This document shows, piece after piece, positions 9,439-32,614 of a stretch of 35,768 nt of DNA. The stretch is from contig SVPM01000017.1 of NCBI GenBank assembly GCA_015065865.1, positions 1 to 35,768 on the forward strand, given 5' to 3'. This stretch comes from Oscillospiraceae bacterium (GTDB lineage Bacteria > Bacillota > Clostridia > Oscillospirales > Acutalibacteraceae). The notes beneath the pieces are model-generated. The model did no database searches, was not told where the DNA came from, and was given only the letters and a program-made list of their open reading frames with translations. The translations under genes and the position numbers were made by a program. Position 1 is the first letter of the stretch. Every line of letters starts with the position of its first letter.

Positions 9439-10485
9439 TTAAAACACATCCGAAACACGGACGATACCGATGGTGACCTGTCCGTCTTTCAAATCGTGGA
9501 AGATGACTTGTTCGGAGGAGGGGGAGAAGGTGGGATGCGGGTGCGCGGGATGTTTCCAGATGAAGCCTGCGCGGTATACTTCCGCCTCTTTGCCTGTTTC
9601 TTTATCGATCACTACCACACTGCTGTAGCCGGGGCCTTGCGTGTCGGCGGTGAGATAGCGGTTGTTCGGTGCACAGCACACGTGCCAATAAGGATAAGCC
9701 GCATACTGCACGTTGGTCTGTTTACCATCCACCCCCGCAAAGCACAGCCCGCGCGGCGGGAGGGGTGAGCAGGGATACTTCACAAACCACAAACCGCTGC
9801 CGTCGGGCACCCAGCACTCGTGTCCGAAGCAGTCGCCCAGATTGCCCTCCTCGTCCAGCCGCTGTTTGGCCATGCAGTGCATGCCGTTTTCTTCATCGTA
9901 CAGCCACAGGCGGTTGGAAACATAGAAGGTGTCGCCTTCGTGGGCGAAAAACACCTGTCTATGGTTTTGCGGGTTAACCATAAAATGGTTGGCGGTGGGG
10001 AAAGGGGCTTGGAACCGTTTGCGGAACAATTCGACCGCTTCACCGGTCTGCAGATCCAACCGTTTGCAGTTAGAACCGTCGCCGCCGTCGTATACGTAAT
10101 ACCGTCCGTCGGCGGTAACGGTGCTGTCGGCAAGATACTTGTCGCGATGCAGGTCACGGCTTTCACCGCTTGCGATATCCACGCACACGAGGGTGGGCAT
10201 ATCCTCATCGCGGCGAATGATGTATGCCTTCGTGCCGTGCACCATCGCGACGTTCGAGTGCGGCACAAGCAGCGTTTCGGTTTCGTTTTGAAGATCGACC
10301 AATACCGACTCCGCATTTGCGTAAAATTCTCTGTCGCTGCCATCGAACTTGGGGCTGCGATTGAGCACCAAGCGGTGTTCGTCCACCCAGTTGTTGGTGG
10401 CATAGTAACCGAATGAGTAGTGGTAGGTATCGTCCGCGATGCGGACGAGGGGCAAGCCGCCCACGGTTTCGTGTGTGATGTTCAT
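9439..10485 (-). CDS. Oligogalacturonate lyase-like beta-propeller enzyme (copy 2)
   Basis: The 348-residue protein resembles oligogalacturonate lyases (Ogl, PF14583), seven-bladed propellers that cleave short uronides by metal-dependent beta-elimination in the cytoplasm. Visible landmarks are GHECWVPDG (His222, matching the Ogl base), YWHVCCAPN (His268) and HPAHPHP (His312, His315, His317). From memory the Yersinia enzyme coordinates Mn2+ with Gln-x-x-His-x-His at this last site, so the Gln appears replaced by His312. No signal peptide is present, so it acts on imported or internal substrate. AAGGAG precedes the ATG, 14 nt after the preceding gene. It is a clear paralogue of that neighbour. 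The true substrate may not be a pectin fragment. Confidence 0.8.
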   Translation of the reverse strand: MNITHETVGGLPLVRIADDTYHYSFGYYATNNWVDEHRLVLNRSPKFDGSDREFYANAESVLVDLQNETETLLVPHSNVAMVHGTKAYIIRRDEDMPTLVCVDIASGESRDLHRDKYLADSTVTADGRYYVYDGGDGSNCKRLDLQTGEAVELFRKRFQAPFPTANHFMVNPQNHRQVFFAHEGDTFYVSNRLWLYDEENGMHCMAKQRLDEEGNLGDCFGHECWVPDGSGLWFVKYPCSPLPPRGLCFAGVDGKQTNVQYAAYPYWHVCCAPNNRYLTADTQGPGYSSVVVIDKETGKEAEVYRAGFIWKHPAHPHPTFSPSSEQVIFHDLKDGQVTIGIVRVSDVF

Positions 10486-10499
10486 ATAGGAACTCTCCT

Positions 10500-11597
10500 T
10501 TATTCCGCAATGTCAGTCGTGCGTACAAGACCCAGTGCCACCTTTTCATTTTTCCATTCGTGGAAAATGAGCAGTGATGAATCCAAACTAAACGAGGGGT
10601 GCGGATGGGTGGGGTGTTGCCACGTGGTGCCTGCTTGGTGCACCAATGTTTCCTGACCCGTTGCGGTATCTACAAAGCAAACTCCGCTATAGGAATCGCT
10701 TTGTGTGTCGGCGGCGAGGAACCGCCCGTTCGGTGCACAGCAAACGTGCCAGTATGGATACTTTTGATACTGCACATCGGTTTGTTCGCCCTCGATGCTT
10801 ACATAGCAGATGCCGCGCGGCGGCGTGGGCGAGCAGCGGTACTTAATAAACCACAAACCTTTGCCGTCGGGAGCCCAGCATTCGTGGCCGAAACAATCGC
10901 CGAGATTCCCCTCTTCGTCCAATCGCTGTTTTGCCAACGGGAACATCCCTTTGTCTTTCGTATACAACCACAGGCGATTGGAAATGTAGAACGTGTTGCC
11001 CTCGTGGCAGAAGAAGACGGTGTCGGGGTCAGTGGGGGAGATCATAACGTGTGTGACCTCGGGCAACGGCTTTTGAAAGCGCTTTCGGAACAGGATCTCG
11101 CTCTCGCCGCTTGCGGTATCCACCCGCACGCACGTATACTCCTCACTGTCGTTCGCCGGATGAATCTCCAAATTGAGAAAACGGCCGTCTGCTGTGATAT
11201 GCGGAAAATAAAGGTCATTCGGGTGGGCGTACAATTTGCGCGGTTTGCGTGTTTCCACGTTCATATGCCACAAACTGTCGCCGTTTTCACCTTTACACAG
11301 ATAATAAAGGTCGCAGCCGTTCACGACGTATCCTTCGGTGTACCCCGAGCCGTAGGCGCGGTCGGGTGAGGGAGGCAGAGTGCAGAGAAACGTTTCGGTT
11401 TCTTTCTCAACGTCCACCAACACCAATTCGGCGTGTTGGCTAAACTTTTTCAGTTCCGGTTCGGTGCTGCGTACCAACACCAAACGGTGGTCATCCACCC
11501 ATTTGTTGGCGCTGTAGTATCCGAAGGAATAGTGATAGGTATCGTCGGTGATGTAACGGATGGGGTAGCCATTCACTACATCGTTTATGATCTTCAT
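10500..11597 (-). CDS. Oligogalacturonate lyase-like beta-propeller enzyme (copy 1)
   Basis: This 365-residue protein is the tandem paralogue of the following gene. It shares YHYSFGYY near the N-terminus, then GHECWAPDG, YWHVCCAPN and a C-terminal HPTHPHP metal motif, in the order seen in oligogalacturonate lyases (PF14583). As in its partner, His stands where Ogl has the metal-binding Gln. The start is the ATG at 11597: GGAG lies 8 nt before it, and the start overlaps the stop of the upstream oxidoreductase gene as ATGA, so translation is coupled. An ATG six bases earlier is too close to the ribosome site. Two divergent copies in one operon suggest two related substrates or a hetero-oligomer. 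No secretion signal is seen. Confidence 0.8.
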   Translation of the reverse strand: MKIINDVVNGYPIRYITDDTYHYSFGYYSANKWVDDHRLVLVRSTEPELKKFSQHAELVLVDVEKETETFLCTLPPSPDRAYGSGYTEGYVVNGCDLYYLCKGENGDSLWHMNVETRKPRKLYAHPNDLYFPHITADGRFLNLEIHPANDSEEYTCVRVDTASGESEILFRKRFQKPLPEVTHVMISPTDPDTVFFCHEGNTFYISNRLWLYTKDKGMFPLAKQRLDEEGNLGDCFGHECWAPDGKGLWFIKYRCSPTPPRGICYVSIEGEQTDVQYQKYPYWHVCCAPNGRFLAADTQSDSYSGVCFVDTATGQETLVHQAGTTWQHPTHPHPSFSLDSSLLIFHEWKNEKVALGLVRTTDIAE

Positions 11598-12664
11598 ACG
11601 CATAGCTCCAGTGCACGGTTTTGTGCTTTGATGCAAAGTTCCATGGTGGTGAGTGTTTCCGCGAGCGGCAGGGCGGTGTCGGTGCGATGCACCACGTCCC
11701 ACAGCACGCGGTGGAAGAAGGAGGAACCGATCTTGCCTTGCACGCTTTCGTGGAAGGTGCCGTCTTCGGTCACCAAAAAGACGTGTTCGCCGGTTTTGTC
11801 CACTCCGATATTGACGTTTTTACGCAGTTCGATATACCCTTTTTCCGCCTCGATGATGAGGCGCGGATCCCCCCACGTGCCGAGCCCTTTGGGAAAGTCC
11901 CACGAAATGTGCAAAAAGCCGGTAGCACCGTTTTCGCCGGTGAGCAGGATATCACCCACCTCATCAAATTCCGCATATTGCGGATAGCGCAGATTCGCCA
12001 CCCGTGCGGCGGTAACGGAGGCGGTGGTATTGCCTGTCAGTTTCAAAAACTGATGTACCTGATGGGAGCCGATGTCAATGAGCACGCCACCCGTATCTTC
12101 CCGCCTGAAAAACCACGCGGGACGGGAGGGGGCGTTCAGCACGTGCGGGGCGGAGATGATGACACTGTTTACCCGTCCGAGCATGCCGCGAGAAAGCCTA
12201 TCATAGATAAAGGTCATGGATTCCGAATCCATACTCTCTCCGAAATAGGTGATGAATTTTTGACCCGTTTCGGCGCACGTAGCTTTAATATCCTCGAGTT
12301 GCGACAGGGTGGTACAGGGAGCTTTGTCGGACAAAAAGTCTTTGCCTGCCCGCATTACGCGCACACCCAGCGGCGCGCGGCGCGCGGGAATATCCGCCGA
12401 AGCGATCAGACGCACGGCAGGATCTTGTAAGATATCCTCTTCGCTTGCCGCGGCCTGTGCGGTGGGAAATTCCTTCAAAAAGCGTTCCACCAGTGCGGGG
12501 TCGCGGTCAAACACAAAACCGAGAACGGCACCGGCGCGGAGAAGCCCGTGACACATACCGTAAATATGGCCGTGCGCGAGACCGATCGCGGCAAAAACGA
12601 TCGGTTCATCGGGGACGGGGGGGACGGTGAACGCTGAGTAATCAAAAAATTTGTCCCGTGTCAT
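11594..12664 (-). CDS. Gfo/Idh/MocA-family oxidoreductase
   Basis: The 356-residue protein belongs to the NAD(P)-dependent Gfo/Idh/MocA family, which oxidises or reduces sugar or inositol hydroxyls. The N-terminal Rossmann segment is atypical: IGLAHGH near residues 27-33 replaces the usual GxGxxG. The catalytic-lysine motif EKP appears as DKAPCTT, keeping the Lys. The substrate domain has GGVLIDIGSHQVHQ, the usual D-x-G-x-H block. The ATG overlaps the preceding stop as ATGA, and the stop overlaps the next start in the same way. It therefore sits between another oxidoreductase and two lyase-like proteins in one translationally coupled operon. Substrate unknown. Confidence 0.85.
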   Translation of the reverse strand: MTRDKFFDYSAFTVPPVPDEPIVFAAIGLAHGHIYGMCHGLLRAGAVLGFVFDRDPALVERFLKEFPTAQAAASEEDILQDPAVRLIASADIPARRAPLGVRVMRAGKDFLSDKAPCTTLSQLEDIKATCAETGQKFITYFGESMDSESMTFIYDRLSRGMLGRVNSVIISAPHVLNAPSRPAWFFRREDTGGVLIDIGSHQVHQFLKLTGNTTASVTAARVANLRYPQYAEFDEVGDILLTGENGATGFLHISWDFPKGLGTWGDPRLIIEAEKGYIELRKNVNIGVDKTGEHVFLVTEDGTFHESVQGKIGSSFFHRVLWDVVHRTDTALPLAETLTTMELCIKAQNRALELCV

Positions 12665-13812
12665 GTCATATCCACCAACTCTCTGTATTCTTCATAATCC
12701 GAAAGCAAGTGTTCTTCATCGTAGCACCGCATCATCAACTCATATAGACCGTCGGCATAGAGAAAACGGTCTCTGATTTTGATCTTCTCGGTCTTCACGG
12801 GGCGGATGGGGTGCTGTTGAACGGCTTCGATGCACCGCACCTGTGCCGCGGCGGCGGAAACGCCGCACGGCGGGATATAGTCGGGGACTTGCACGGCGGC
12901 GATCGCCTCAAAGATCTTTTCGTTTACGTCGGCGGCGGGATTGCCGTAACGGTATTCTTTTCCGTCGGTGGTCACACCCACGATCTCTTTGCCGTCATAA
13001 GAAACGGTGCCGTTTTCAAAGCGGTAGCAAAACAGCGGATCTTGCAGTTTTTCGGTTGCGTGGGAAACCAAACACAGTGCCGTGGCACCGTTATCCAGTG
13101 TAAAACGCGCCGCAGCGGTATCAAAGTTTTCGATCGCATTTACACGGGAAAGGTCGCATTCGGTCGTCACAGCTTCGGCAGCACGGCCCACGGCACCGCC
13201 CGTGACGTACAGCATATTATGCAGATAATGGGCGGTCGCGTTGTTGAGGACACTGTCGTTCATCACGGTGCCGTCGGGGGCAAGACACTTGCCGCCCCAA
13301 CCCGTGCCGCGCGTGAAGTATTCCTGCGGGCGCGGCCACAACACCAACGTTTTCAAGAACTGCGGTTTGCCGTAAACCCCCGCCGTAATATCGGCCTTCA
13401 GTGTGTTGATGGCCGAGGCGTAACTCCACTGATAACCCACCATCACGAATTTGCCCGCTTTTTGTGCCGCCTCGTTGATCACCGCTTCATCAGCGGAAAC
13501 ACCGCTGAGTGGTTTTTCCACCATTACGTGGGAGCCGTTTGAAAGCGCGCACAGCACCTGACGGGTATGCAAAAAGATGGGGGTGGTGATGATGGCGAGG
13601 TCGGCCGTATGTGCGGCATAAAATTCCTCCATCGTGGGGAACAGCGGCACGCCCGCCGCCGCAAGCGTAGGATAATGCTTGCATCGCTCGGGCATTACTT
13701 CCACCATACCGACGATTTCAAAATCGGGTTCCTCTTTTGCCAGCAGCGCATTCAAATACACCTCGGCATAGCCGCCGATACCTACGCACAGCAGTTTGAC
13801 TTTGTTGTTCAC
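12661..13812 (-). CDS. Gfo/Idh/MocA-family oxidoreductase, first gene of the lyase operon
   Basis: The roughly 383-residue protein has a clear Rossmann start (KLLCVGIGGYAEVY, with GxGG), VEKPLSG as the catalytic-lysine motif, and a C-terminal alpha/beta domain typical of NAD(P)-dependent sugar dehydrogenases. In the substrate domain the usual aspartate-histidine block is altered to NNATAHYLHN. The GTG at 13812 is chosen because AAGGCGG lies 8 nt before it; the ATG at 13818 is a close alternative. It is the first gene after the AraC regulator. It is followed by a 4-nt overlap with the second oxidoreductase, indicating strong co-expression. Known relatives include enzymes that make 3-keto-glycosides, which would suit a downstream elimination enzyme, but that is inference. 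Confidence 0.85.
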   Translation of the reverse strand: MNNKVKLLCVGIGGYAEVYLNALLAKEEPDFEIVGMVEVMPERCKHYPTLAAAGVPLFPTMEEFYAAHTADLAIITTPIFLHTRQVLCALSNGSHVMVEKPLSGVSADEAVINEAAQKAGKFVMVGYQWSYASAINTLKADITAGVYGKPQFLKTLVLWPRPQEYFTRGTGWGGKCLAPDGTVMNDSVLNNATAHYLHNMLYVTGGAVGRAAEAVTTECDLSRVNAIENFDTAAARFTLDNGATALCLVSHATEKLQDPLFCYRFENGTVSYDGKEIVGVTTDGKEYRYGNPAADVNEKIFEAIAAVQVPDYIPPCGVSAAAAQVRCIEAVQQHPIRPVKTEKIKIRDRFLYADGLYELMMRCYDEEHLLSDYEEYRELVDMT

Positions 13813-13831
13813 ACACATCACCGCCTTACAG

Positions 13832-13963: not shown

Positions 13964-14713
13964 TTACATAATGGATCGCTTGCGAAAATCGCGTGGGGTC
14001 TGTCCGGTCACCATGCCGAACACTTTGCGGAAATAGGAGGCGGAACTAAACCCCAGTTGTTCGCTGATCGCTTCGATCGACAGATCGGTGGTTTGCAACA
14101 GGTCGATCGCACGGCGACAGCAGAGTTCCTGTCGCGCCGCATTGGGTGTTTTGCCCAGCGCACGGCGAAAAATTTGGTAGAGCGCCGATTCACTGATGCC
14201 GCAGGCATCGGCCACTTCGCTCATAGAGGCGGTGAGATGTTCCGTCATATATTGCATGGCCGTGTAGGGAATGGGATGATAGGTTTGCGGATGATCCACC
14301 GCCATAGTGGGGAGGGTCAGCCCCAGTGCGGTATAGAGCAGACCGACGGTGTAGGCGCTCACGGTATCGGTATCTGTGAGTTGTGAAAACAGTGCCGCCG
14401 CTTGTGTGTCGGGGTGCAAGACCTGCAATGCATACGGACACTTGCGATCACGCGGAAGATAGGCAAAGCCGAGCGATTGAAATACGCAGTCCTCGCCGCG
14501 CCAATAGGAGTGGTAGCGGCATCCCTTAGGAATATAGAAGATATCTCCTGCTTTTACCTCAATACGGGTAATGTCGGAAACAAGAAGTCCGTGTCCGCTT
14601 TTTAGAATACCGATGAAATGTGTGGGAGCACCGTGACTGTTATCGGTGTGATGGTGTTGGTGAATATGTATTTGTATAAAGCGAAATGTGGTGAAGAATT
14701 CTTGGTCATTCAA
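13964..14713 (-). CDS. AraC-family transcriptional regulator (AraC1)
   Basis: The 249-residue protein has an N-terminal cupin-like sensor domain (HFIGILKSGHG...GDIFYIPKGCRYHSYW). Its C-terminal double helix-turn-helix of AraC/XylS type spans roughly residues 150-245 and includes ISEQLGFSSASYFRKVFG near the end. It probably activates the oxidoreductase/lyase operon that begins 151 nt downstream on the same strand. The start is taken as TTG at 14713, because AAGGTGG lies 8 nt before it and the frame upstream gives no family-like sequence; a GTG at 14725 overlaps that ribosome site. The sensed ligand is probably a sugar or glycoside fragment. Confidence 0.85.
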   Translation of the reverse strand: MNDQEFFTTFRFIQIHIHQHHHTDNSHGAPTHFIGILKSGHGLLVSDITRIEVKAGDIFYIPKGCRYHSYWRGEDCVFQSLGFAYLPRDRKCPYALQVLHPDTQAAALFSQLTDTDTVSAYTVGLLYTALGLTLPTMAVDHPQTYHPIPYTAMQYMTEHLTASMSEVADACGISESALYQIFRRALGKTPNAARQELCCRRAIDLLQTTDLSIEAISEQLGFSSASYFRKVFGMVTGQTPRDFRKRSIM

Positions 14714-14758
14714 CGGTAAAACCACCTTTTTAATGCAGAATATTACCTCTTTTTGTGC

Positions 14759-14787
14759 AGTATAGCATATTGCGTTCGTGCGGTCAA
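14759..14787 (-). promoter_or_regulatory. Promoter of AraC1
   Basis: On the - strand TTGACC (14787-14782) and TATACT (14764-14759) are 17 nt apart, with TG one base before the -10. It overlaps the outward-facing promoter at 14770-14799, so the two cannot easily be occupied at once. Confidence 0.75.
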
Positions 14788-14799
14788 GCGGTTTATAAT
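14770..14799 (+). promoter_or_regulatory. Promoter towards the quinone-oxidoreductase-like gene
   Basis: TTGCGT (14770-14775) and a perfect TATAAT (14794-14799) are separated by 18 nt. Transcription would start near 14806, run through the oxidoreductase fragment and reach the gene at 15003. It interleaves with the AraC1 promoter on the other strand. Confidence 0.6.
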
Positions 14800-14813
14800 A
14801 AGTTAAGAGTGTG

Positions 14814-14984
14814 ATGGCATATGGCAAAACGCATTTTGTTTGCCTTGCCGCTGTTGCATCTGGCGGATGCCGCCGTCAGTTGGTCGTTGCAGGTACCGAA
14901 GGCGTGGTGGAGATCCGCCCGTTGGAGTGCGGAGAGTATCCGCCCGACTACTATGCGAATGCGCGCGGCGTAAGGCGGGAATGA
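14814..14984 (+). pseudogene. C-terminal remnant of a Gfo/Idh/MocA oxidoreductase
   Basis: An open frame of 56 codons from ATG 14814 encodes a segment including GCRRQLVVAGTEGVVEIRPL, followed by a short tail with tyrosines and arginines. This resembles the C-terminal part of Gfo/Idh/MocA dehydrogenases, where G-x-x-R-R-Q-L-x-V-x-G-x-x-G-x-x-E-I-x-P-L-E is common. The N-terminal Rossmann domain and the EKP motif are absent, so the fragment cannot be an active dehydrogenase by itself. It sits directly between the divergent promoters and the gene at 15003. The simplest explanation is a deletion that removed most of an ancestral gene of this sugar island. It may still be translated as a leader peptide, though its ribosome site is weak. 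Confidence 0.6.
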
Positions 14985-20252: not shown

Positions 20253-22000
<1,748 letters not shown>

Positions 22001-22025
22001 ATTGCTCCCCGTCCTTTCTGTTTCC

Positions 22026-22057
22026 ATTATAATGCAAAAGGCACGGTTTCGTAAACC
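22026..22057 (-). promoter_or_regulatory. Promoter with palindromic operator of the kinase operon
   Basis: A perfect TATAAT lies at 22031-22026 on the - strand. The -35 region is poor (TTACGA, 17 nt upstream) and is covered by the palindrome GGTTTCGTAAACC (22045-22057). Its place over the -35 is right for a repressor site. The obvious candidate binder is the XRE domain encoded immediately downstream. Confidence 0.55.
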
Positions 22058-23077: not shown

Positions 23078-23112
23078 GATAGCGGAGAAATTCGCCTATG
23101 GGAGAGTGCAGT

Positions 23113-24441
23113 ATGGAACACAGAGAGTTTCACTATACCTCAATTAACGACGTACAAGCGGAGGCGGCCGCATTGGGTGTGGCACTGCCGCTGTCGGAAA
23201 ATACGGCGGTGCTGAAAAAACCGCTTGCGGTGGGGGGCGTTACCTTGCCGAATCGTTTGGCAATTCAGCCTATGGAAGGATGCGACGGCACGGCGGACGG
23301 TGCGCCCGATGAACTGACTTTGCGGCGGTATCGCCGCTTTGCGGCAAGCGGTGCGGCGCTGATCTGGGCAGAGGCAACGGCGGTGGTGCCCGAAGGACGC
23401 GCGAACCCGCGCCAGTTGATGCTGACTGCCGATAATCTGGATGCCTACAAATTCATGGTGGAGGAAATGCGCGAGATATGTCTGCGTGAAAACGGATTTT
23501 CACCGTTTATCGTGTTGCAGATGACCCATTCGGGGCGGTATTCCAAACCGCAGGGCACCCCCGCACCGTTGATCGCTTATAACAACCCGATTTTTGAAAA
23601 GAGCGCACCGATCGATCCTTCACGGGTGGTGAGCGACGACTATTTGGCCGCTCTTCCCGCACGGTATGCCGAAACCGCTCGCTTGGCGGCACAAGCGGGG
23701 TTCGATGCGGTGGATATCAAGTGCTGTCACCGCTATTTGATGAGTGAGTTGCTTTCGGCCTATGAGCGAGAGGGACGGTACGGCGGCGACTTTGCGGGGC
23801 GTACCCGTTTGCTGTGTGAAACGGCAGAGGCGGTGAAGGCTGCGGCACCCGCTTCCTTGATGGTGTCTTCGCGCCTCAATTTGTACGACGGGTTTCCTTT
23901 TCCATACGGATTCGGCGTGACGGCAGAGAGCGGGCTTACTCCCGTGCTTGACGAGGCAAAACAGGTGGTAACGCTGTTGCACGAACGGTACGGTATGCCG
24001 CTGCTTGATTTTACCATCGGCAACCCCTACGTCAACCCGCACGTCAACCGCCCGTACGACAAGGGCGGATATCTGCCGCCCGAGCACCCGCTCGAAGGGG
24101 TGGCGCGTATGATGGATTGTGTCGGCGAAGTGCGCCGTGCCTTTCCGAATCTGACGGTCATCGGTTCGGGATATTCCTATCTGCGGCAGTTTGCACCGCA
24201 ACTGGCGGCCGGCGCGGTGGAAAGCGGCGTGTGCGATATGGCGGGCTTCGGCCGCGAAGCGTTTGCTTACCCGACTTTTGCACGGGACATTGCGGAAAAC
24301 GGCAGGATGGATCCGAAAAAGTGCTGCATTACCTGCGGTAAATGCACCGAGCTGATGCGTGCGGGCAGTGTGGCGGGGTGCGTTCCGCGGGACGGCGCGG
24401 TATACGCACCGATCTATCGGCGTGACGTGTTGAAGAAATAA
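23113..24441 (+). CDS. Old Yellow Enzyme-like NADH:flavin oxidoreductase with Fe-S cysteine motif
   Basis: The 442-residue protein is an OYE/2,4-dienoyl-CoA-reductase-type TIM barrel that would bind FMN and reduce an activated C=C bond. Visible are PNRLAIQPMEG near the start, QMTHSGRYS in the middle, and KCCHRYLMSELLS followed by GRYGG, which replaces the usual H-x-A-H-G-Y-L block. Near the C-terminus C405-x2-C408-x2-C411-x11-C423 can hold a 4Fe-4S cluster, as in dienoyl-CoA reductase and BaiCD. The second, pyridine-nucleotide-binding half of those proteins is missing, so electrons must come from another protein. GGGAGAG before ATG 23113 decides the start over ATG 23098. It is first in an operon with an SDR and a FAD protein. 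Confidence 0.82.
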   Translation: MEHREFHYTSINDVQAEAAALGVALPLSENTAVLKKPLAVGGVTLPNRLAIQPMEGCDGTADGAPDELTLRRYRRFAASGAALIWAEATAVVPEGRANPRQLMLTADNLDAYKFMVEEMREICLRENGFSPFIVLQMTHSGRYSKPQGTPAPLIAYNNPIFEKSAPIDPSRVVSDDYLAALPARYAETARLAAQAGFDAVDIKCCHRYLMSELLSAYEREGRYGGDFAGRTRLLCETAEAVKAAAPASLMVSSRLNLYDGFPFPYGFGVTAESGLTPVLDEAKQVVTLLHERYGMPLLDFTIGNPYVNPHVNRPYDKGGYLPPEHPLEGVARMMDCVGEVRRAFPNLTVIGSGYSYLRQFAPQLAAGAVESGVCDMAGFGREAFAYPTFARDIAENGRMDPKKCCITCGKCTELMRAGSVAGCVPRDGAVYAPIYRRDVLKK

Positions 24442-24454
24442 GGGGGATATGAAT

Positions 24455-25225
24455 ATGAAAGTGGCATCGGTTACGGGATCGCGGCGCGGCATCGGTTTGG
24501 CGATCGCACGGGAATTGGCGCGTGACGGCTATACCGTGGTCTTGTCGGATATTATCGAAAAGGCAGAGACGGCACCCCTGCTGGAAGAACTCACCGCCGA
24601 AGGGCTTACGGTGGATTATTTCCGCTGTGATATCAGCAACACGGCCGACCGTGCGGCGTTTTTTGCGTACATTGATGAAACCTACGGGCGGCTGGACGTG
24701 CACGTGAACAACGCGGGGGTTGCCCCGCGGGTGCGGTTGGATATTTTGGAAACCACCGAGGAGAGTTTTGATTTTCTTATCAACGTGAATCTGCGCGGCA
24801 CCTTCTTTATGTGTCAAGCGGCGGCCAATTTGATGCGAGGGTATCAGGCGCGTGGGGTGGAAGATTACACCCCGCGTATCGTAAACATCGCCTCTATGTC
24901 GTCCTACACGTCATCCACCAACCGCGGAGAGTATTGTATTTCCAAAGCGGGCATCTCGATGGTGACCCAACTGTTTGCGGATAAATTGGCCGAGGACGGC
25001 ATTCCTGTGTTTGAGGTGCGTCCCGGTATCATTCAAACCGATATGACCGCAACGGTGACCGAAAAGTATCAAAAACTTATCGACGGCGGTGTGACCCCCA
25101 TTCGTCGTTTCGGTCAGCCCGAGGACGTGGCAAATTGCGTGATGGCGGCGGTGAGCGGTCGCTTGGATTTTGCCACGGGACAGGTGCTCAATGCGGACGG
25201 CGGTTTTCATATCCGTCGTCTGTGA
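24455..25225 (+). CDS. Short-chain dehydrogenase/reductase (SDR)
   Basis: The 256-residue classical SDR oxidises or reduces a hydroxyl/ketone with NAD(P). It has TGSRRGIG at residues 7-14, NNAG at 85-88 and the catalytic set Ser147, Tyr160, Lys164 (in YCISK). Asp32 after the second strand favours NAD(H) over NADP(H). The second ATG (24455) is preferred because AGGGGGAT lies 8 nt before it, while the ATG at 24449 is only 2 nt from it. It lies 13 nt after the OYE-like gene and 9 nt before the FAD-protein gene. A substrate handled by both an ene-reductase and a dehydrogenase is likely. Confidence 0.88.
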   Translation: MKVASVTGSRRGIGLAIARELARDGYTVVLSDIIEKAETAPLLEELTAEGLTVDYFRCDISNTADRAAFFAYIDETYGRLDVHVNNAGVAPRVRLDILETTEESFDFLINVNLRGTFFMCQAAANLMRGYQARGVEDYTPRIVNIASMSSYTSSTNRGEYCISKAGISMVTQLFADKLAEDGIPVFEVRPGIIQTDMTATVTEKYQKLIDGGVTPIRRFGQPEDVANCVMAAVSGRLDFATGQVLNADGGFHIRRL

Positions 25226-25234
25226 GGTGAGAGT

Positions 25235-27187
25235 ATGCAGTGGAATGTGAACGGCGTTTCGGTGCCGGTGCGCGTGTTGGATACGGCGGTGGTCGGTTCG
25301 GGCTGTGCCGGTTTTAACGCGGTGGATTGGCTGTGGACGCTCGGACGGCGGAATATTGCACTTATCACCGAAGGGGTGAATTGCGGCACGAGCCGTAACA
25401 CGGGCAGTGATAAGCAGACGTATTACAAACTGTCGCTGGGCGGTGACGGTGCGGACAGCGTGGCGGCCATGGCGGCCGACCTTTTTGACGGTGAAGCGGT
25501 GGACGGCGACACGGCACTTTGCGAAGCGGCGGGTTCGGTGCGCGCGTTCATGAAACTCAGCAATCTCGGCGTGCCGTTTCCGTGCAATGAGTATGGCGAA
25601 TACGTGGGGTATAAGACCGACCACGATCCCCGTCAGCGGGCAACCAGTGCAGGCCCGCTTACCAGTCGGTTTATGACCGAACGGTTGGAAGAAGCGGTGA
25701 ATGCAAAGGGGATTCCCGTATGGGACGGTATGTCGGCTGTGAAACTGTTGGTGGCCGATGGCGCGATAGAGGGGTTGCTTTGCTTGGACCACACCGCTTT
25801 GAATACCCCGTCGCACGGACTTACGGTGGTGAAAGCAAGACAGGTGATACTCGCGACCGGCGGACCGGCGGGATGCTATTTGCGTAGCGTGTACCCCGAA
25901 AGCCAGACGGGAATGTCGGGTATGGCGTTGGAGGCGGGCGCCAAAGCCGCCAATCTTGACCAGTGGCAGTACGGATTGGCATCGCTTGGGTTCCGTTGGA
26001 ACGTGTCGGGCACGTATCAGCAGGTGTTGCCGCGATACATCTCCATCGACAGCGAGGGCGTGGAACGGGAATTTTTGCTCGATTATTTTGATTCGCCTAC
26101 CGAAGCGCTGGATCGTGTGTTCTTGAAGGGATATCAGTGGCCGTTTGATACCACGAAAATACAAGGCTCTTCGCTTATCGACTTGATCGTGCACCACGAA
26201 ACGGCGGTGCTCGGTCGGCGGGTGTATATGGACTATCGCACCGACCCCACGGGGTTGGAGAACGGGTTCGATAAACTGGCACAGGAAACCTACTGTTATC
26301 TTGCCAATTCGGGTGCGTTGACGGCCACGCCGATCGCGCGACTTCAAAAAATGAATCCGCCTGCGATCGAACTTTACCGTCAGCACGGTATCGATCTGTA
26401 TACCGAACCGTTGGAGATCGGCGTGTGTGCACAGCATCACAACGGCGGTTTGTGGGTGGATGCCGATTGGCAGACATCGGTACGCGGGTTGTATGCCGCA
26501 GGTGAAGCGGCGGGTACTTTCGGGTTGCACCGTCCTGGCGGCAGTGCGCTTAATTCCACACAGGTCGGCTCGATGCGGGCGGCGGAGCACATTGCCGCAA
26601 CGACCGATGAGGATATCGTTGTAACCGCAACGTTTGAAGCGACGGCGCGTTGCGCGGTTTGCGAGATGTTGGTGCACCTTGCGGCGGTGACGGCGCGCAC
26701 CCCGCGGGAGGCCGCGGAGAAGAGCCGTGTGGTTGCTCAGCGCGAAATGAGCGATGCGGCGGCACATCTGCGTAACCCTGTTGCCATGGCGGCGTTGGCC
26801 GAAAACGAGCGAGCGGCGCTGCAACGGTTTTGGGATACAGCGGCGGCTGCGCCTGCCGAACTGCCCGCGCTGTTTAAGAATCGCGACCTTATGATCACAC
26901 GCTGTGCGGTGCTGTCGGCTATGTGTACGGCGGCGGACACGGTGGGCACGTGCGGTTCGGCACTGGTGCTTTGTGAGGACGGTGTGCCGCTTTCGGCGGC
27001 ATTGCCGAATCTGCGCTACGCAGTGCCGAAACCCTACCCCGCAGGACGGCGGCTGATCACCACCCAAACGGAGAGCGGCGGTTTTACTTCACGGTATGAG
27101 CCGGCGCGCCCGATGCCGCAGGCAGACGGGTGGTTTGAAACGGTGTGGGAGGCTTACCGCCGACGTATGCAACGTATTACGGAATAG
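25235..27187 (+). CDS. FrdA/SdhA-like FAD-dependent oxidoreductase
   Basis: The 650-residue protein has the FAD-binding start LDTAVVGSGCAGFNA, with G21, G23 and G26 forming GxGxxG. The late AAGEAAGTFGLHRPGGSALNS block is typical of the succinate dehydrogenase/fumarate reductase flavoprotein superfamily. There is no signal peptide, haem motif or FMN-attachment domain, so it is not a secreted respiratory reductase of the UrdA type. It is last in the operon with the OYE-like and SDR genes and may supply or take electrons, or reduce an unsaturated acid itself. GAGGTGAG precedes the ATG. A strong terminator follows. Substrate unknown. Confidence 0.8.
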   Translation: MQWNVNGVSVPVRVLDTAVVGSGCAGFNAVDWLWTLGRRNIALITEGVNCGTSRNTGSDKQTYYKLSLGGDGADSVAAMAADLFDGEAVDGDTALCEAAGSVRAFMKLSNLGVPFPCNEYGEYVGYKTDHDPRQRATSAGPLTSRFMTERLEEAVNAKGIPVWDGMSAVKLLVADGAIEGLLCLDHTALNTPSHGLTVVKARQVILATGGPAGCYLRSVYPESQTGMSGMALEAGAKAANLDQWQYGLASLGFRWNVSGTYQQVLPRYISIDSEGVEREFLLDYFDSPTEALDRVFLKGYQWPFDTTKIQGSSLIDLIVHHETAVLGRRVYMDYRTDPTGLENGFDKLAQETYCYLANSGALTATPIARLQKMNPPAIELYRQHGIDLYTEPLEIGVCAQHHNGGLWVDADWQTSVRGLYAAGEAAGTFGLHRPGGSALNSTQVGSMRAAEHIAATTDEDIVVTATFEATARCAVCEMLVHLAAVTARTPREAAEKSRVVAQREMSDAAAHLRNPVAMAALAENERAALQRFWDTAAAAPAELPALFKNRDLMITRCAVLSAMCTAADTVGTCGSALVLCEDGVPLSAALPNLRYAVPKPYPAGRRLITTQTESGGFTSRYEPARPMPQADGWFETVWEAYRRRMQRITE

Positions 27188-31358: not shown

Positions 31359-31393
31359 ACTTGCGTTATTTTTTCAATCTTGGCGGTGAATGG

Positions 31394-32614
31394 ATGAAAA
31401 CGTGTATTGTTATCGGTGCGGGCGGTCGCGGTAAGGACTGTTATGCACCGTACATTCAAAGCAAAGGTCTTTTTAAGATCACGGGTGTGGTGGAACCCGA
31501 CACGCAAAAACGTGAGCAATTCCGCGACACCTATGCGATTGAAGAGGATATGTGCTTTGCCGACTATAAAGAGATGTTTGCCAAGGGGCGGCTGGCGGAT
31601 GCGGTGCTGATCTGCACGCAGGACAGAATGCACATGGAGCCGACCTTGCTTGCGAAAAAATGTGGGTATCACATTTTGTTGGAAAAGCCGATCGCGCCGA
31701 CACTCCGCGAAGTGAAGCGGCTTGAAAAAGAGTTTCGCAATTACGATAAAGTGTTTATGACGGGCTTTGTGTTGCGGTACACCCCGTTCATCCGTAAAAT
31801 CAAGGAAATATTGGCGGAAGGGCTGATCGGAGACATCGTCACTATGCAGCTCAACGAAAATGAAGGGTTTTGGCATCACGCCCACAGTTATGTGCGCGGT
31901 CCGTGGAGTCAGAGCAAGACCTCTTCGCCGCTGATCGTGGCGAAATCCAGTCACGATATGGATCTTATGATGTATCTGGTGGGGGCTTCGGGTAAGTACA
32001 TTTCTTCGTATGGCGATAACACCTATTTCCGTTTTGAAAACGCACCGGGCGCGGACGTGCCTGCGCGTTGCACCGACGGATGCCCGTATGCGGATACGTG
32101 CACTTACAATGCGGTGGAGCAGTATACCAACGGAAAAGCCCGCTATTTCGTGCACAAATTTGAGTGCGGTGAGGATAGAGAAGCGATCATTGAAGCGCTG
32201 AAAACCAATCCTTACGGCCGCTGTGTGTATCGGTGCGACAACGACGTGTGCGATCATCAAGTGGTGTCGATGGAGTTTGAAAACGGCGTGACGGCGATGT
32301 TTACCGTGAGTGCGTTTTCGCTCGAGAATAATCGCACCTTGAAGCTGATGGGCACCAAAGGTGAGATCGGCGGATGTATGGAAACGGGGGAGATCGTGGT
32401 CAAGAGTTTCCGCGATATGTCCGAGGTGAAGTACGTTGTGACCCACGACGGCACCAAGCATTGCGGCGGCGACGGCGGGTTGATGGATGAGTTTGCCCGT
32501 GCGGTGTACGACGAGAGTGGGGCCACGCGTGTGGATCCGTGGATGTTTGAAGCGCACAAGATCGTGTTTGCCGCGGAGGAAGCGCGTGAGCGCCGCGAGC
32601 GTATCAAGTTATAA
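31394..32614 (+). CDS. Gfo/Idh/MocA-family oxidoreductase with cysteine-rich insert
   Basis: The 406-residue protein has the Rossmann motif VIGAGGRG (residues 6-13), the catalytic-lysine motif LEKPIAPT and a substrate-domain block SSHDMDLMMYL. Between about residues 220 and 290 it carries a cysteine-rich stretch, including C-x3-C-x5-C and later C-x3-C-x4-C, which might bind a metal. Such inserts occur in a subgroup of Firmicute MocA proteins. The ATG at 31394 fits the family start, with a weak GGCGGTGA site. It is a single-gene transcript with its own promoter and terminator. It is not in an operon with the two oxidoreductases at 11.6-13.8 kb. Substrate unknown. Confidence 0.86.
   Translation: MKTCIVIGAGGRGKDCYAPYIQSKGLFKITGVVEPDTQKREQFRDTYAIEEDMCFADYKEMFAKGRLADAVLICTQDRMHMEPTLLAKKCGYHILLEKPIAPTLREVKRLEKEFRNYDKVFMTGFVLRYTPFIRKIKEILAEGLIGDIVTMQLNENEGFWHHAHSYVRGPWSQSKTSSPLIVAKSSHDMDLMMYLVGASGKYISSYGDNTYFRFENAPGADVPARCTDGCPYADTCTYNAVEQYTNGKARYFVHKFECGEDREAIIEALKTNPYGRCVYRCDNDVCDHQVVSMEFENGVTAMFTVSAFSLENNRTLKLMGTKGEIGGCMETGEIVVKSFRDMSEVKYVVTHDGTKHCGGDGGLMDEFARAVYDESGATRVDPWMFEAHKIVFAAEEARERRERIKL

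Follow-up and report, generated by a model that had tools for sequence, protein, structure and literature searches.

Four coupled genes encode two oxidoreductases and two beta-propellers

The 35,768-nt stretch of Oscillospiraceae DNA analyzed here (contig SVPM01000017.1, assembly GCA_015065865.1; hereafter the window) carries a four-gene operon on its minus strand, in the order GFO1-GFO2-OGLa-OGLb. The first two genes encode Gfo/Idh/MocA oxidoreductases and the last two encode beta-propellers that resemble oligogalacturonate lyase (Ogl). An initial annotation had described a translationally coupled operon of this composition, with overlaps of 4 and 4 nt and then a 14-nt gap, and both the open reading frames and junctions that we read directly from the sequence and the Pfam matches of the products agree with that description. 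The genes, together with the regulator upstream, are as follows.

GFO1: 12661..13818, minus strand; Gfo/Idh/MocA oxidoreductase, clade A of a conserved pair; PF01408 at 56 bits
GFO2: 11594..12664, minus strand; Gfo/Idh/MocA oxidoreductase of the 2p2s/3u3x family, clade B; PF22725 at 64 bits
OGLa: 10500..11597, minus strand; Ogl/PL22-like beta-propeller; PF14583 at 46 bits
OGLb: 9439..10485, minus strand; paralogue of OGLa; PF14583 at 48 bits
AraC-family regulator: 13964..14827, minus strand; upstream of the operon on the same strand; PF12833

The GFO1 stop and the GFO2 start share an ATGA at 12661-12664 (4-nt overlap), and a second ATGA at 11594-11597 is common to the GFO2 stop and the OGLa start (4-nt overlap). 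OGLa (end 10500) and OGLb (start 10485) are separated by 14 nt, and this gap together with the OGLa stop forms AAAGGAG, in which AGGAG is the ribosome site. GFO1 can be started at ATG 13818 or GTG 13812, a choice that alters nothing, and codon-position GC is consistent with coding in all four frames.

The genus is represented by two genomes in our collection, the window genome (G000) and G504, and both carry OGLa and OGLb. At the G504 locus (recorded as both L030 and L068) all four genes stand in unchanged order; the GFO2/OGLa ATGA is kept, while the GFO1/GFO2 and OGLa/OGLb junctions are gaps of 1 nt and 13 nt. Protein identity between the two genomes is 87% for GFO1, 88% for GFO2, 83% for OGLa and 68% for OGLb, with dN/dS values of 0.093, 0.095, 0.114 and 0.237, respectively, indicating purifying selection and thus that all four are maintained proteins. 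No AraC-type counterpart adjoins the operon in the G504 neighborhood, so the regulator is probably a local feature. Relatives of the propellers are scarce: they were found in 9 of 391 genomes sampled from the class (own included), 7 of 300 in the family and 6 of 394 in the order, and beyond the window genome in none of 399 sampled from the phylum (E 1e-25). Among 84,980 named genomes they occurred at six loci, two of which name the ruminant caecum in their titles. The carrier is a gut-type bacterium, and its Gfo and Ogl-like operon is real, rare and conserved.

The propellers share the Ogl fold and carry an altered metal site

OGLa and OGLb are 52% identical, and both match PF14583 above the Pfam cut-off of 30 bits, while NCBIfam assigned neither to a family. 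A Foldseek search of the PDB with an AF2 model of OGLa (built on a nine-sequence alignment; pLDDT 86.8, pTM 0.88) returned the two solved oligogalacturonate lyases as its best matches, YeOgl (3pe7; TM 0.78, E 2e-20) and VpOgl (3c5m; TM 0.76), and the next fold was TolB, at a TM of ~0.5. OGLa and OGLb are thus true Ogl-fold homologues.

Residues were numbered from Klebsiella Ogl, which agrees with 3pe7 at the compared sites. In YeOgl, His242 is the proposed base, and His287, His353, His355 and Gln350 bind Mn2+. Six positions, those of His207, Arg217, His242, His287, His353 and His355, are kept in OGLa, OGLb and all other members of their clade, as in the PL22 enzymes. The metal site is not the Ogl type of three His and one Gln, since Gln350 is replaced by His throughout the clade (His328 in OGLa) while the three other metal-ligand His are kept. 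In OGLa the putative base is His238, accompanied by Arg208, and the putative metal ligands are His284, His331, His333 and His328; OGLb has the same catalytic and metal residues. Unlike the PL22 enzymes, with which OGLa shares ~20% identity over the structural match, the clade has replaced several other Arg, Lys and His residues of true Ogl (K41N, R169 variable, H184 mostly F, R196S/C/N and K259C/V, in addition to Q350H). It has also gained D35, R43, N207, K252 and W283 (OGLa numbering), R43 and N207 with exceptions.

In a propeller tree of 32 rows, the window-type sequences form a separate 11-row clade (support 100/100), and OGLa and OGLb fall outside the clade of characterized-type, enterobacterial Ogl (100/99), which supports the earlier view that they stand apart from true Ogl. 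In their own genus the propellers adjoin the Gfo pair. A genome of another genus in the same family (G648) has a c2-type Gfo, a GFO1-type Gfo and then, after a 1-nt gap, its only propeller. As a check, the initial annotation had asked whether propellers of this kind always travel with Gfo pairs and never with pectin genes, and the remaining neighborhoods show that they do not. A GH88-family gene lies directly before OGL in G276 and G258, and G258 also has a rhamnosidase-family gene just beyond. A water-buffalo Clostridia locus (L032) reads GH88-family gene, OGL, KduI (440 bits, cut-off 250), a gluconate-5-dehydrogenase/KduD-type short-chain dehydrogenase/reductase (SDR; 499 bits, cut-off 369) and AP_endonuc_2. 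The order in G186 is GH53-like, OGL, MFS and esterase, and in G815 a GDSL esterase and a URO-D-like gene stand beside OGL without a Gfo. The GH88-family neighbors in L032 and G276 (L034) are YteR-like GH105 proteins (~307-309 bits to 1nc5), YteR being an unsaturated rhamnogalacturonyl hydrolase, and the propellers linked to them are 38-41% identical to OGLa. A relative outside the clade, in Paenibacillus castaneae (30%), also adjoins a GH88-family gene. We therefore conclude that this clade, taken together, is not cut off from pectin and uronate chemistry. We also rejected the Gfo pair as diagnostic of the propeller subgroup, because beyond the genus G648 alone has it, and it is missing from the OGL neighborhoods of G276, G258, L032, G186 and G815.

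The union of a Gfo pair with OGL arose at least twice independently, with a GFO2-type second Gfo in the genus of the window and a c2-type one in G648. By a rough estimate, a single-copy OGL would lie beside a single-copy Gfo pair by chance at ~1e-3 per ~2,000-gene genome, so two independent unions are unlikely to be accidental.

More distant PF14583-like domains occur in frames of ~300-1600 aa, up to several per genome, at loci of large proteins (L023-L029, in G237, G327, G107 and G289). A further OGL homologue (L107, G897:C466) has an in-frame TAA and is probably a decaying copy.

The Gfo pair is an independent unit

GFO1 and GFO2 have very little sequence similarity (BLASTP E = 0.02). In each, one Gfo domain exceeds its Pfam cut-off, placing both proteins in the Gfo/Idh/MocA family, while the second falls below it (25.1 of 27 for the C3 domain of GFO1, 18.7 of 24 for the Rossmann domain of GFO2). 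The best PDB match of GFO1 is 3q2i (58 bits; DgpA scores 38 bits), and Lys100 in EKP and His195 are present (numbering from GTG 13812). GFO2 matches 2p2s at E=5.8e-79 (268 bits) and keeps Lys114 in SDKAP and the DIGSH motif, with GLAHGH as its glycine loop. Against the families of characterized glycoside 3-dehydrogenases (BT_2158, BT_2159 and levoglucosan dehydrogenase), GFO1 scored 16-29 bits (cut-offs 650-750) and GFO2 had no match.

Homologues of GFO1 occur in 23 of 245 class genomes (own included), and at the loci examined they mostly adjoin a c2-type second Gfo, often with a GH38 mannosidase; among these loci, only the one in G648 has an OGL. Members of the GFO2 family occur in 171 plasmid records, most of them rhizobial. 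We examined nine annotated records (S. meliloti, N. galegae, A. tumefaciens, Rhizobium Pop5, Sinorhizobium B11, Aureimonas, Paracoccus, Thalassococcus and Ketogulonicigenium), and in each of them a second Gfo directly adjoins the GFO2 homologue; the pair is adjacent in Paenibacillus too, by our own calling of open reading frames. In Subdoligranulum a GFO1-type gene lies ~12 kb from the GFO2 homologue. In the Gfo tree the partner genes fall in the half that holds GFO1, and the remaining genes in the half that holds GFO2 and the c2 type. The window pair thus resembles the rhizobial and Rhodobacterales tandem (GFO2 relatives 33-44% identical), which unlike it lacks propellers and in the records examined is often accompanied instead by sugar ABC or TRAP transporters, without a lyase. 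Some of these tandems are also near uronate genes: uxuA lies a few genes from the pair in 3/3 Rhodobacterales records, and Thalassococcus has uxaC as well. Because the pair is found without OGL in rhizobia, Rhodobacterales and Clostridia, we regard it as an independent unit.

The tandem of a GFO2-family gene and its partner is widespread on rhizobial megaplasmids (e.g., L137, L138 and L144), often beside sugar ABC transporters, and the annotations that we read assign it no function. A weak NCBIfam match had suggested an Agrobacterium two-component beta-galactosidase, a lead that we dropped since the literature gave nothing. The window encodes a third Gfo/Idh/MocA protein (31361-32614, plus strand), which does not group closely with the pair in the tree and is at most 21% identical.

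The operon plan recalls keto-glycoside pathways

Two described operons combine oxidation with elimination. In the levoglucosan operon of Bacillus smithii, LgdA oxidizes, LgdB1 eliminates, LgdB2 hydrates and LgdC reduces (PMC7676230), and an A. tumefaciens operon follows a keto-glycoside route with GlycDH, AtOGE, AtHYD and a Gfo (PMC10628242). The window operon shares with the first its plan of two oxidoreductases (LgdC is annotated Gfo/Idh/MocA) and two lyase or hydratase proteins in one cluster, if one propeller is counted as a putative hydratase. LgdB1 and LgdB2 are annotated as sugar phosphate isomerases/epimerases where the window has propellers, and activity has been shown for the Lgd proteins. 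With the Agrobacterium operon and with DgpA plus CGE, the likeness lies in the logic of oxidizing and then eliminating, the eliminase being a Mn2+ enzyme and the reductase a Gfo. The eliminases of those systems are unrelated in sequence and have other folds, and no Ogl homologue is present there. The window operon has a propeller in place of an isomerase-like or CGE-type eliminase, and the earlier statement that known 3-keto-glycoside pathways use other cleavage enzymes is borne out for the operons cited here. The titles and abstracts that we searched contained no pairing of Ogl with Gfo enzymes. Each part belongs to a known family, and the union of a Gfo pair with an Ogl-like protein is, as far as we have seen, new.

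Uronide elimination is the somewhat likelier of the proposed functions

The two operon-bearing genomes (92.6% and 93% complete) both encode UxaC and KDPG aldolase, in one cluster with UxuA and a D-mannonate-oxidoreductase-type SDR. In G504 this uronate cluster, with a PfkB kinase, shares a contig with the operon, at a distance of ~7-13 kb. The presence of these genes indicates that the genus can use intact glucuronate. A large secreted protein encoded near the G504 operon (1559 aa, dockerin and Big_3) matched no catalytic family.

The reading that we favor, with slightly less than even confidence, is that the operon is a catabolic module for a uronic-acid-containing glycoside, acting by uronide elimination with an accessory Gfo couple. 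From the observed gene order, fold, conserved residues, modular neighborhoods and presence and absence of pathway genes, we infer a substrate, a metal, a reaction order and an oxidized carbon as follows. OGLa and OGLb would be beta-eliminases with the Ogl (PL22-like) fold, a His base and a Mn2+-type metal site, and would retain carboxylate-activated chemistry: His238 would abstract a proton beside the metal-bound carboxylate, and the neighboring sugar or substituent would depart. The two Gfo enzymes would be an NAD(P)-linked redox couple that existed beforehand and was drawn into the operon; they may oxidize a ring carbon, either in the uronide or in the released uronate or deoxy-uronate, and then reduce it again. 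This step would fit substrate or product to the UxaC-UxuA-UxuB/KDPG-aldolase pathway of the genome. We favor uronide elimination because the Ogl catalytic residues are conserved and Ogl is by far the nearest fold, because clade sisters adjoin GH88/GH105, KduI and KduD-type SDR genes, because the Gfo pairs of the three Rhodobacterales records sit near uxaC and/or uxuA, and because both operon genomes carry UxaC, UxuA, the SDR and KDPG aldolase.

Several observations weigh against it. The clade-wide loss of true-Ogl Arg, Lys and His residues suggests that the substrate of OGLa and OGLb probably differs from digalacturonate, and the operon contains no transporter or pectinase. KduI and GH88/GH105 enzymes are the usual takers of unsaturated uronate. 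Neither GH88/GH105 nor KduI was found in G000 or G504, where an RpiB-type substitute was not searched for, whereas KduI was present in 4/4 comparison genomes and GH88 exceeded its cut-off in 3/4. The genus thus has none of the enzymes that classically process the 4-deoxy product of Ogl. An RpiB-type isomerase, such as the one in a Rahnella Ogl neighborhood, could stand in for them.

The same absence, in genomes that have genes for taking intact uronate, speaks for the oxidation-then-elimination route of the initial annotation, to which we give roughly a one-in-three standing, uronide elimination being somewhat likelier. The operon would then be a propeller version of LgdA/B1/B2/C: one Gfo would make a keto-glycoside, possibly from a glucuronide; one propeller would eliminate the aglycone, with the metal holding the keto-enolate; the second propeller would hydrate the enone; and the second Gfo would reduce the keto sugar and recycle NAD. 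OGLa and OGLb would be the first beta-propeller eliminase/hydratase pair acting on a Gfo-made keto-glycoside, a convergent version of the four-step route on the Ogl fold, probably for glucuronides feeding the glucuronate pathway. In favor of this route are the plan of two oxidoreductases and two lyase-like proteins, which the operons of B. smithii (PMC7676230) and A. tumefaciens (PMC10628242) share, the union seen twice with different second Gfo subfamilies, the coupling of all four genes and the purifying selection on them. Against it, sister propellers with the same conserved pocket residues sit in ordinary uronate or pectin contexts, rhizobia and others keep the Gfo pair without an adjacent eliminase, and G648 has a single propeller. 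Moreover, neither Gfo reaches the cut-off of any characterized 3-dehydrogenase family, and two propellers that are 52% identical may both be eliminases. No residues separating Gfo-linked from GH105-linked propellers were seen by eye in a table of conserved columns. The uronate-linked sisters, the propeller-free Gfo pairs and the lack of a discriminating pocket residue therefore keep keto-glycoside elimination by the propellers hypothetical.

The modularity of the Gfo pair, adjacent in 9/9 annotated records and Paenibacillus, often with transporters and without a lyase, is also what one would see if the pair were an autonomous oxidation-reduction (epimerizing) couple for a free sugar acid or polyol. 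The propellers would then be metal-dependent isomerases, hydratases or hydrolases that have abandoned elimination chemistry, and the operon would serve a single ligand with no glycosidic elimination. The separate tree sides of the two Gfo halves and the change of Gln350 to His across the clade fit this non-eliminating scheme, which we nevertheless consider unlikely, since the His242 (base), Arg217 and His207 positions are fully conserved in the clade and the GH105 and KduI genes beside the sisters argue that elimination persists. Least probable, and by a wide measure improbable, is an ordinary oligogalacturonate lyase operon for pectin. PF14583 scores above cut-off and Ogl as nearest fold speak for it, but the propellers lie outside the characterized-type clade, no kdu, kdgM or pectinase genes were found at the window's locus, and the genome lacks KduI and GH88/GH105; we disfavor it on tree position and the missing kdu and pectin genes.

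Other features of the window and related loci

Elsewhere in the window, a single open frame (20786-22027, minus strand) joins a PfkB sugar kinase to an N-terminal HTH_3, both above the Pfam cut-off. Next on that strand come genes for a D-lyxose-isomerase-like protein, a class II aldolase and an aldose epimerase; the arrangement resembles a sugar operon in which kinase and regulator may be fused. Three successive redox genes (23098-27187, plus strand) encode an old-yellow-enzyme-type FMN oxidoreductase, an SDR and a FAD_binding_2 protein akin to aspartate oxidase/fumarate reductase. In G648 (L069 8574-13187, minus strand), a 1537-aa frame contains FGGY kinase, D-2-hydroxyacid dehydrogenase, SCP2 and class II aldolase domains. 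Another frame at L069, of 1124 aa, combines radical-SAM and PFL-like domains. These long frames are unusual fusions or assembly artefacts.

Significance of the operon

If the propellers cleave keto-glycosides, a fold of polysaccharide lyases would have been turned to the cleavage of keto sugars, and the small set of known keto-glycoside eliminases would gain a new fold; this would also caution against naming PF14583 proteins "oligogalacturonate lyase". If instead uronide elimination, the reading that we favor, is correct, the operon would define an Ogl-like clade in Firmicutes whose metal site is altered, and it would give a uronate clue both for that clade and for a widespread Gfo pair without an assigned role.

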